DNA of 64,000 nucleotides from Ralstonia sp. NFACC01 (GTDB lineage Bacteria > Pseudomonadota > Gammaproteobacteria > Burkholderiales > Burkholderiaceae). The notes beneath the pieces were generated by a model. That model saw only the letters and a list, made by a program, of their open reading frames with translations, ran no database searches and was not told the origin of the DNA. Where the stretch lies: assembly GCF_900115545.1 (NCBI RefSeq), contig NZ_FOWV01000005.1, positions 372,001 through 436,000 on the forward strand. The letters run 5' to 3'. A program made the position numbers and the translations under genes. Shown here one piece after another: positions 55,322 through 57,830 of the stretch (positions are counted from its first letter, which is position 1; every line of letters begins with the position of its first letter).

Positions 55322-56509
55322 TTAGGCGTGCGCCTTCAGCAGCGTGCGCAGCATGCCGATCATCGTGTCGATTTCTTCGGTCGTCACGTTGAGCGCGGGC
55401 ATGAATCGGAGGATGTTCGGACGCGGGGCGTTCAGCAGCAGGCCCGTCGGGTTCATCTCGCGTGCAGCTTCGACCAGTTGGCCGCCGATGTCCTTGCCGA
55501 GCAGCAGGGCGCGCAGCAGGCCGTCACCGCGTTCGCCGGCCAAGCCGAACTCTTCGCTCAGCTTGAGCAGTTGCGTACGCAGATAGGCGCCGCGTTCTTG
55601 CACGCCGGCCAGGAAGCCGGGGGCTAGGAGTTGCTCGATCACCGAGCAGCCGACGGCCGTCATCAGCGGGTTGCCGTTGTAAGTGCCGCCTTGGTCGCCG
55701 GCCTCGAAGCTGGCAACTTCATCCGTGCACAGCAGGGCCGAGAGCGGCACGCCGCCGCCGATGCCCTTGCCCAGCGTCATGATGTCCGGCTCGATGTTCG
55801 AAAGCTGATAGGCGAAGAGCGTGCCGCAGCGGCCGCAACCGGCCTGCACTTCATCAACGATCAAGAGGATCTTGTGCTTCTTGGTCAGCGCGCGCAGTTG
55901 CTGCATGAATTCCGGCGTGGCCGGCAGCACGCCGCCTTCGCCTTGCACCGGCTCAAGCATCACGCCGACAGTCTCGTCGGTGATGAGCGCTTCCACCGAG
56001 GCAATGTCGTTCAGGATGGCTTTCGGGAAGCCCGGTACCTGCGGCGCAAAGATGGTGTCCCAGCCGGCCTTGCCCGACGCGCTCATGGTGGCGAGCGTGC
56101 GGCCGTGGAAGCTGTGATCAAACGTGATGATCTGGAACGCGCCATTCTTATGCTTCTTGCCCCACTTGCGAGCGAGCTTGATGGCACCTTCGTTGGCTTC
56201 AGCGCCGCTGTTGGCGAAGAACACCTTGTCGAAACAGCTGTGCGCGGTCAACAGGCCGGCCAGCTTGGCCATCGGCTCGTTGTAGAACGCCGGGCTCGGG
56301 TTGATCAGCTTACGGGCCTGCGCGTTCAGCGCTTCGATCATGCCGTCGTTGGAGTGACCGAGGCAGTTGACGGCCCAGCCTTGCACGAAGTCCAGGTATC
56401 GCTTGCCGTTGTGGTCCGTCAGCCACGAGCCCTTGCCTTCGGTGAAGACGATCTCGGGCCGGTTGGTGATGTACATCAGGGACTGGACGGGGTAGTCAGC
56501 AAACGCCAT
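55322..56509 (-). CDS. argD: Acetylornithine aminotransferase
   Basis: A 395-residue class III PLP aminotransferase. In arginine synthesis it makes N-acetylornithine from N-acetylglutamate semialdehyde; relatives also act in lysine synthesis or arginine catabolism. Diagnostic segments are [36 protein letters not shown] and [11 protein letters not shown] with the PLP lysine. The start is the ATG at 56509 with CTGGAGCTTTGCC upstream. Its leader holds an Arg-rich mini-ORF and a terminator, suggesting attenuation control by arginine supply. Confidence 0.92.
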
Positions 56510-56575
56510 GGCAAAGCTCCAGAAAAAGGCGGCAGGAAGATGAAAAACCGAAAAAACACGAGTTGGAAAAAGACA

Positions 56576-56603
56576 AAGGCCACGGGGGTTGCCCCGTGGC
56601 CTT
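56576..56603 (-). terminator. Intrinsic terminator in the argD leader (candidate attenuator)
   Basis: A perfect 12-bp stem (AAGGCCACGGGG with CCCCGTGGCCTT) around a 4-base loop, followed on the minus strand by TTTGTCTTTTT. It is oriented for leftward transcription only. It lies 67 bp before the argD ATG and 33 nt past the stop of the Arg-rich leader ORF. It could also end transcripts of the upstream reductase gene. Confidence 0.88.
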
Positions 56604-56636
56604 GTGATCGTCGAATCCTGTGAACCCGATATGCAA

Positions 56637-56708
56637 TCAGCAGACAGCCGCGTGGCTTCCCGGAGGGAGCAACGTACGGCGGCGTCGGAGGTGCAGTGCT
56701 TGGTTCAT
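56637..56708 (-). CDS. Candidate arginine leader peptide of argD (23 aa)
   Basis: A 23-codon ORF in the argD leader; it starts [17 protein letters not shown]. It contains four consecutive arginine codons (CGA CGC CGC CGT, 56687-56676), and a TGA ends it 33 nt before the terminator. The ATG lies 8 nt after the -10 box of a good promoter, so the transcript would be leaderless or nearly so; no Shine-Dalgarno sequence is visible. The layout (promoter, short ORF with codons for the end product of the pathway, terminator, biosynthesis gene) is that of hisL or trpL. Expression and regulation are inferred. Confidence 0.6.
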
Positions 56709-56716
56709 AAGGCGCA

Positions 56717-56745
56717 AGAATAAGACGGATGCCAAGTCAAGTCAA
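56717..56745 (-). promoter_or_regulatory. Sigma-70 promoter of the argD leader
   Basis: On the minus strand TTGACT (56745-56740), a 17-bp spacer and TATTCT (56722-56717). The expected start is within 56710-56708, at or just before the leader-peptide ATG. The site lies just after the stop of the upstream reductase gene. Confidence 0.62.
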
Positions 56746-56780
56746 AACGAAATTTTGACCTTCTTGGGATTTGTGCAACG

Positions 56781-57830
56781 TCAGCCGGCCGGATGGAGAT
56801 CGGCCTCTGAGGTGAAGGAATCGGCGAAAAACGCGTCCGGGTGCATTCCGCATTTGGCGGCGAAGTCCGCGCGAGCCGAGTTGATCACCACCGGCGCGCC
56901 GCAGGCGTAGACCTCGTAGCCCGACAGATCGGGGTGATCGGCCATCACCGCTTGGTGAACGAAGCCGGTGCGGCCCGTCCACGCGTCTTCCGGCAAGGCG
57001 TTGGAGACGACCGGCACGTAGGTGAGGTTCGGCAGCGTGCGCGCCCATTCTTCGGCCTTGGCGTGCATGTACAGGTCTTGCGGGCGGCGGCCGCCCCAGT
57101 ACAGCGTCATCGGACGCGTGCTGCCGATGAACTGGGCGTGCTCGATGATCGCCTTGATGGGCGCGAAACCGGTGCCGGAGGCCAGCAGGATGATCGGCTT
57201 GTCGGATTCTTCACGCAGGAAGAAGCTGCCCAGCGGCCCCTCGAAGCGCAAGATGTCGCGCTCCTTCATGGCCGGGGCGCCTTCCTTGGCGCCGAACACA
57301 TAGTCGGTAAATGCACCGCCCGGCATGTGGCGGATATGCAGCTCGATCGGGCCTTCCTCGTGGGGCGGGTTGGCGATCGAGTAGCTGCGCCGCTTGCCGT
57401 CGCGCAGGAGGAATTCCACATACTGTCCGGCCAGAAATTGCATACGCTCGGTGGCAGGCAGTTGCAGCTTGACGATGGTGACGTCCGGCGCGGCCTTTTC
57501 CAGCGATGCTACGCGGCACGGAATCTTCTTGATGGGTACGTCGCCGGCGCCTTGCACCTCACGCACTTCAATCGTGATGTCAGTGGCGGGCGTAGCGCAG
57601 CAGAACAGCGCGCGGCCTTCGGTGGCTTCCTGGGCGGACAGCGCGTTGGGCGAGTGGTTGCCCTGGACGATGGAGCCCTCGCGCACGTGGCCCTTGCAGG
57701 AACCGCACGCACCGTTTTTGCAGCCGTATGGCAGGCCGATGCCCTGGCGCAGCGCCGCTGCAAGGATGGTCTCGCCGTCTTCGGCCTGGAACTGGCGGCC
57801 GCTGGGCAGCACGTTGATCTGGTAAGCCAT
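56781..57830 (-). CDS. Ferredoxin-NAD(P)H reductase of the CDP-6-deoxy-glucoseen reductase (AscD-like) type
   Basis: A 349-residue electron-transfer protein. The N-terminal plant-type [2Fe-2S] domain has cysteines 37, 42, 45 and 77 (YGCKNGACGSC and FCCAT). The FAD domain carries RRSYSIANPP and the C-terminal NAD(P) domain has LLASGTGFAPI and ACGAPVVI. It is usually annotated as a CDP-6-deoxy-delta-3,4-glucoseen reductase, but no dideoxysugar genes are nearby, so the true partner is unknown. Its cluster spacing is identical to that of DmpP. The start is the ATG at 57830; only 14 bp separate it from the divergent SDR gene. Confidence 0.88.
   Translation of the reverse strand: MAYQINVLPSGRQFQAEDGETILAAALRQGIGLPYGCKNGACGSCKGHVREGSIVQGNHSPNALSAQEATEGRALFCCATPATDITIEVREVQGAGDVPIKKIPCRVASLEKAAPDVTIVKLQLPATERMQFLAGQYVEFLLRDGKRRSYSIANPPHEEGPIELHIRHMPGGAFTDYVFGAKEGAPAMKERDILRFEGPLGSFFLREESDKPIILLASGTGFAPIKAIIEHAQFIGSTRPMTLYWGGRRPQDLYMHAKAEEWARTLPNLTYVPVVSNALPEDAWTGRTGFVHQAVMADHPDLSGYEVYACGAPVVINSARADFAAKCGMHPDAFFADSFTSEADLHPAG

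Follow-up and report, generated by a model that had tools for sequence, protein, structure and literature searches.

The window, as we call the whole 64,000-nucleotide stretch of Ralstonia DNA that was analysed, carries the acetylornithine transaminase gene argD on its minus strand (NCBIfam NF002985 equivalog, 783.9 bits; cut-off 568). Downstream of argD lies a GNAT acetyltransferase gene (55242–54766, minus strand), and upstream lies an open reading frame (ORF) with 2Fe-2S, FAD, and NAD domains (57884–56781, minus strand), which precedes the leader element. The best named relative was R. pickettii SSH4, with 99% ArgD identity. The parts of the leader element and its gene are as follows.

56745–56740 and 56722–56717, minus strand: promoter, with −35 TTGACT, a 17-nt spacer, and −10 TATTCT (consensus scan, 9/12; relatives share this layout)
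56708–56637, minus strand: upstream ORF (uORF) for a leader peptide, 23 codons and a stop, from ATG at 56708 to TGA at 56639–56637 (read from the sequence)
56687–56676, minus strand: control codons CGA CGC CGC CGT, four Arg codons within the uORF
56657–56640, minus strand: candidate antiterminator segment (region 2), AGCCACGCGGCTGTCTGC (folding and cross-family comparison)
56603–56576, minus strand: intrinsic terminator stem-loop, with 5' arm 56603–56592 and 3' arm 56587–56576 (sequence and scan)
56520–56517, minus strand: Shine-Dalgarno-like GGAG of argD (read from the sequence)
56509–55322, minus strand: argD

The original prediction had named a promoter, a uORF with four consecutive Arg codons (RRRR), its stop, a terminator, and the argD ribosome binding site, and all of them were found where it had placed them when the sequence was read and scanned. 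The terminator stem comprises 12 pairs, nine of them G-C, closed by a 4-nt loop (−24.2 kcal/mol), and is followed by a T-rich tail at 56575–56566 on the minus strand, where the sequence after the stem reads TGTCTTTTTC. One promoter-like site was found at the locus against 0.1 in shuffles. For terminator-like sites the figures were one and 0.8, so that the terminator count alone is not unusual. Small ORFs of 8–45 amino acids were also surveyed on the window's two strands, with ATG, GTG, or TTG accepted as starts. Of 2252 such starts, a single one had a −35/−10 pair 5–9 nt before it. This was the argD leader uORF, the same ORF that has the RRRR run and the terminator.

The ATG of the uORF stands 8 nt downstream of the −10 element, which leaves no space for a Shine-Dalgarno site, and the uORF is therefore probably leaderless. 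The same probably holds for its relatives, and transcription probably begins at the uORF ATG or immediately ahead of it.

Conservation of the leader and its control codons

The named loci were the best 80 of 579 argD-like stretches and represent a sample of close relatives. In all 80, an ATG lay 7–9 nt past the −10 element, the uORF contained two or more Arg codons side by side, and a terminator stood ahead of argD. The uORF with its Arg run and the terminator also preceded argD in all 16 genomes sampled from the window's genus, which are partly the same genomes as the named loci. When the named loci, the genus genomes, and the order-wide argD matches were combined, the gap between the −10 element and the ATG was 6–9 nt. 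The original prediction had proposed an alignment upstream of argD orthologues and had regarded loss of the Arg codons or of the reading frame in close relatives as evidence against an attenuator. Both were retained, and the uORF, the Arg run, and the terminator were kept upstream of argD while the remainder varied.

Attenuators controlled by leader peptides are textbook knowledge for the his, trp, leu, ilv, thr, and phe genes. They are recognized by a small uORF with many codons for the amino acid that the pathway makes, found here as RRRR with its Arg run (80/80 of the best 80 of 579 stretches, 16/16 genus genomes), and by an intrinsic terminator between uORF and structural gene, found here as the 12-bp stem with its T tail and also present in the relatives. 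Such attenuators are further defined by a competing antiterminator, exposed by a ribosome on the control codons and masked by one at the stop, for which a candidate is described below, and by expression that increases during starvation for the amino acid in a manner dependent on uORF translation.

Across the order, a sample of 300 genomes yielded 47 argD matches in 46 genomes at E ≤ 1e-120, and 27 of these matches, in 9 of 11 families (f1, f3, f5, f8, f15, f21, f24, f35, and f39), had the arrangement. Inspection of the upstream regions showed that it was absent at the other 20, comprising all eight f4 matches, all three f30 matches, and part of those in f1 (three small g13 genomes), f8, f21, and f39. 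The automatic rule required at least four of six −10 positions and treated the −35 element as optional. Six of the 27 (L118, L142, L144, L145, L147, and L148) were accepted by eye after this rule had missed them, among them L148, whose uORF has no two adjacent Arg codons. L187 was inspected individually among the 27 and replaces L137, which came without upstream DNA. One automatic match, L131, was rejected for its poor −35 element and lack of a terminator; it is still counted among the 103 automatic hits.

The leader peptides were of the type MHMTFNRRRSFRTSLPAGVPRG or MNTAMIRRRARTLLPSGVPRG in Cupriavidus and MNRIQSELRRRRSPLP in Paraburkholderia, with Ralstonia forming a separate type, and outside the Arg run they differed widely between families. 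In one leader from Cupriavidus, L042, what appears to be an insertion of 9 nt repeats Ser-Phe-Arg in frame and gives the peptide one more Arg codon. At another locus, L117, the leader stays with argD although the upstream gene is a different one.

This last arrangement bears on whether the terminator could belong to the upstream reductase gene, with the ORF present by chance and argD not attenuated. The upstream ORF lies on the same strand and ends at 56781, and the scan of 56400–56950 detected no second terminator-like site, which would fit such an origin. However, the two genes are separated by a conserved promoter, and the arrangement recurs in nine families and also where the upstream gene differs. 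We give this explanation almost no credence.

Codon usage was compared in 42 equal-length Paraburkholderia-type leaders, drawn from a group of 45 (25 distinct). Every one of the 168 control-codon cells, four per leader, encoded Arg, and the three changes among them were synonymous. Codons 3, 5, 7, 14, 15, and 16, among others, changed residue in the same leaders. CGA was the first codon of the Arg pair in 100 of the 103 automatic hits, which are non-independent and include the false hit L131. In 40 long ORFs of the window, CGA made up 98 of 1304 Arg codons (7.5%). Among 21 leaders from other families, 48 of 127 Arg codons in the uORFs were CGA, compared with 31 of 465 in the argD frames. CGA, CGC, and CGU are decoded by one inosine-bearing tRNA, which reads CGA slowly. 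A caution comes from Salmonella speF, where rare and frequent Arg codons acted alike (PMC6386406).

The run could also act through its peptide, with the nascent chain binding arginine or ornithine in the ribosome tunnel, rather than through codons that sense charged tRNA. SpeFL and the arginine attenuator peptide of fungi are examples of such sensing by a nascent peptide. In Salmonella, speF is controlled by a uORF in which Arg codons directly follow one another (PMC6386406). Unlike the conserved domain of ORF34, however, the peptides studied here vary widely between families outside the Arg run, and CGA is favoured among synonymous codons, a preference that a peptide sensor would not need. 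We consider sensing by the nascent peptide very improbable.

Candidate antiterminator pairing

The antiterminator of the original prediction, an 8-bp pairing of 56673–56666 with 56595–56588, was variable among the relatives. In five of the eight named Ralstonia loci (L025, L026, L027, L028, and L063) the terminator loop was altered and the leader side unchanged. Among Cupriavidus loci the pairing was kept in L045 and L048 and broken in L031, L033, L036, L041, and L061. Because it was not consistently kept, we set it aside as the main antiterminator. An alternative pairing joins 56657–56640 to the 5' arm of the terminator (56603–56592), and its upstream segment begins 30 nt past the first Arg codon, clear of a stalled ribosome.

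We folded the leaders with limits that follow known ribosome footprint sizes. In the stalled state the RNA was free from 15 nt after the start of the first Arg codon, and in the stop state from 13 nt after the start of the stop codon. In the window's leader, 9 of 12 arm bases were predicted to pair upstream with the ribosome stalled, and none of the 12 once it had reached the stop codon. At least six bases of the 5' arm were paired upstream in the stalled-state folds of 20 of 20 representatives, a result that is weak by itself because about half of the arm is paired in shuffled leaders as well. Arm pairing exceeded the shuffle mean in 31 of 32 leaders, and it was higher in the stalled state than at the stop codon in 31 of 32, a difference that partly reflects the smaller amount of RNA left free in the stop state. 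L138 showed arm pairing no better than its shuffles, and the arm of L048 paired no less with the ribosome at the stop. Six of 20 leaders still paired at least six arm bases in the stop state, weakly (−1.0 to −8.1 kcal/mol). With no ribosome on the RNA, at least six arm bases remained paired upstream in 10 of 20 leaders, including that of the window (9/12), and the folds therefore do not predict termination without translation of the uORF.

Leaders of Ralstonia and Cupriavidus share the motif GCC-N-CGCGGCU in different reading frames, in which the variable N is the unpaired base; the exception is L035, with a mutated region 2 and poor pairing. Most Paraburkholderia leaders pair via GCCGCUGGCUU or GCCGCCGGCUU, and L144 (f5) pairs via CCGUGGC. 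Three further f5 leaders, L145, L147, and L148, carry several scattered CGA codons in Ala/Arg-rich uORF peptides, and in these the antiterminator is encoded by a shared GRGA stretch.

Leaders were matched to their own and to swapped terminators, which gave p values of 0.00005 (25 leaders) and 0.0002 (10 leaders, nine families). Fisher combination of dinucleotide shuffles over 10 leaders chosen per family gave 6e-7. Since the one-per-family leaders were picked after the pairing energies were known, family medians are the fairer figures in the remaining tests: 0.003 for natural windows of the same loci (Fisher; 0.002 for nine leaders, one per family), 0.005 for ensemble arm pairing (Fisher; 0.003 for the nine chosen leaders), and 0.017 for folding energy (0.001 for the chosen leaders). 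The natural-window test failed when the worst leader of each family was used (p = 0.17). Taken alone, the window's own leader was no better than chance (p = 0.449 for the swap, 0.58 for natural windows, and 0.257 and 0.168), and the case for an antiterminator in this copy rests on the relatives.

Relation to known RNAs and to other arginine genes

At Rfam's own threshold the window had no match. Below that threshold, one full-length match coincides with the leader.

56723–56575, minus strand: RF02884 (BcKCsr7, Burkholderia sRNA 7), 26.8 bits against a gathering threshold of 59, E = 0.001

The gathering threshold was passed by 6 of 12 related loci (L044, L054, L096, L104, L105, and L106; 84.6–163.7 bits), and L031, the one Cupriavidus locus tested, fell below it. 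The window leader is thus a homologue of RF02884, not a member by Rfam's rule. Within the family, 20 of 60 genomes gave RF02884 matches, 17 of them above the cut-off, and the window's genome gave none in this whole-genome scan, which used stricter filters. Coordinates compared with the argD match placed RF02884 directly ahead of argD in G024, G026, and G035, and the RNA coincided with the genus-sample leaders in G008, G015, and G045. One of these genomes, G035, has a second, weak match away from argD (C8:433348-433428, 32.6 bits, below the cut-off). In Paraburkholderia, Trinickia, and their kin, RF02884 is the same locus, spanning the −10 region through the terminator, immediately ahead of argD. 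BcKCsr7 was reportedly described in Microbiology in 2017.

Rfam types this RNA as 'Gene; sRNA', and we read it here as the leader of argD. The Rfam type would suit a trans-acting sRNA with its own promoter and terminator that stands before argD by chance, its ORF being incidental or secondary. The promoter and terminator do delimit a discrete transcript, and the trpL attenuator RNA of Sinorhizobium meliloti also acts in trans (PMC7298713). Against this, an in-frame Arg run whose amino acids are kept adjoins the terminator before an arginine gene, and the leader remains with argD when the upstream gene differs. We consider an RNA of this kind quite unlikely; a role of the leader RNA in trans could exist in addition to attenuation. 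On this evidence, RF02884, filed as an sRNA gene, appears to be a terminated argD leader.

Compared with the attenuators of the trp, his, leu, thr, ilv, and phe operons, the argD leader is alike in its end-product codons, in the overlap of its terminator with a candidate antiterminator, and in having an intrinsic terminator before a biosynthetic gene. It differs in that the sensed amino acid would be arginine, the target is argD, the uORF is probably leaderless, CGA is preferred as the first control codon, and the peptide is otherwise unconserved between families. Consecutive Arg codons in a uORF also sense arginine in the Salmonella speF leader (orf34; PMC6386406). The speF leader differs in acting via Rho, RNase G, and the accessibility of the ribosome site, in preceding a polyamine gene, and in having a conserved peptide domain, and the authors of that study found no Rho-independent terminator in it (PMC6386406). 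Our 23-aa leader peptide had no Pfam match at E 0.001, a search of low power for so short a query, and hence none to ORF34/DUF2618; the gene downstream of it is argD. The trpL attenuator RNA of S. meliloti likewise begins at the uORF ATG (PMC7298713) and differs in sensing tryptophan and in belonging to an alphaproteobacterium.

We found no earlier argD leader-peptide attenuator for Burkholderiales in a search of mainly open-access literature. In their main-text passages, neither Naville and Gautheret 2010 (PMC2965389) nor the Burkholderia cenocepacia transcriptome papers (PMC5688073, PMC4603805) contain 'argD' or 'arginine'.

The arginine repressor ArgR (Pfam PF01316) was detected in 0 of 100 genomes of the order, whereas nine of the 14 control genomes, including that of E. 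coli, gave a match. This agrees with a report that ArgR is conserved in gammaproteobacteria and absent from other classes (PMC5343134). In the window's genome, no Arg leader was found at argF (L172, the locus used out of 15 argF loci), argG, or argJ, and the attenuator would therefore control one step. Two argC-like matches fell below the family cut-off: L184 had no identifiable start codon, and L185 had a GTG ORF with RRR 147 nt upstream. Upstream of distant ArgD-like genes (about 40% identity) the full arrangement occurred in 0 of 19 regions, some of them with uncertain start codons, and L192 in this group had an RRR ORF without the remaining parts. These genes may encode another aminotransferase or another ArgD type.

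Other hairpins were seen near arginine-related genes. In L172, at about 1410–1479, the argF start codon is immediately preceded by a GC-rich hairpin (GGCGGC ... GCCGCC) with a T-rich stretch after it. The hairpin recurs in relatives, at the plus-strand argF loci L159, L164, L169, and L173, without a leaderless uORF with an Arg run; it is possibly a second kind of arginine-related leader. A similar CGGCGG ... CCGCCG hairpin lies near the starts of the distant ArgD-like genes in L190, L191, L202, L203, and L206, without an Arg uORF, and the start codons are uncertain in L190 and L203.

Proposed mechanism and meaning

We consider it very likely that the element is a ribosome-mediated transcription attenuator that couples argD to the arginine supply. 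Transcription would begin at or just before the uORF ATG, and the uORF would be translated as a leaderless ORF. With ample charged tRNA-Arg, the ribosome would clear the Arg codons, reach the stop, and cover the antiterminator segment, so that the terminator would form and a short RNA of ~140 nt would be released. When arginine is short, the ribosome would stall at the Arg run, which begins with CGA, and leave 56657–56640 exposed, so that this segment could pair with the terminator's 5' arm and RNA polymerase would continue into argD. The comparison of sequences supports this scheme through the order of the parts, the in-frame Arg run, CGA as its first codon, the terminator, the absence of ArgR from the searched genomes, and a pairing that appears to track the terminator across families. 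We infer the ends of the transcript, the stalling, and the arginine response of the argD leader.

Attenuation itself is already known. What appears to be new, as judged from sequence comparison, is arginine as the amino acid, the leaderless uORF, the preference for CGA, the wide range of the clade, and the connection with RF02884. A wider proposal, which we put forward as a doubtful one, is that in Burkholderiales, where ArgR was not detected, argD is controlled by a widespread leaderless attenuator that gauges the charging of the CGA-reading tRNA-Arg, and that the released leader (RF02884) acts in trans on other arginine genes that have no leader of their own.

The argD leader is common to many relatives for which searches gave no sign of the usual arginine repressor. 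ArgR was not detected in any of 100 genomes of the order, and the leader makes arginine sensing in this group testable. The use of CGA at the first control position suggests that the sensor is adjusted through the speed at which codons are read, and the argD leader would supply a role for an RNA that is an sRNA gene in Rfam's listing.
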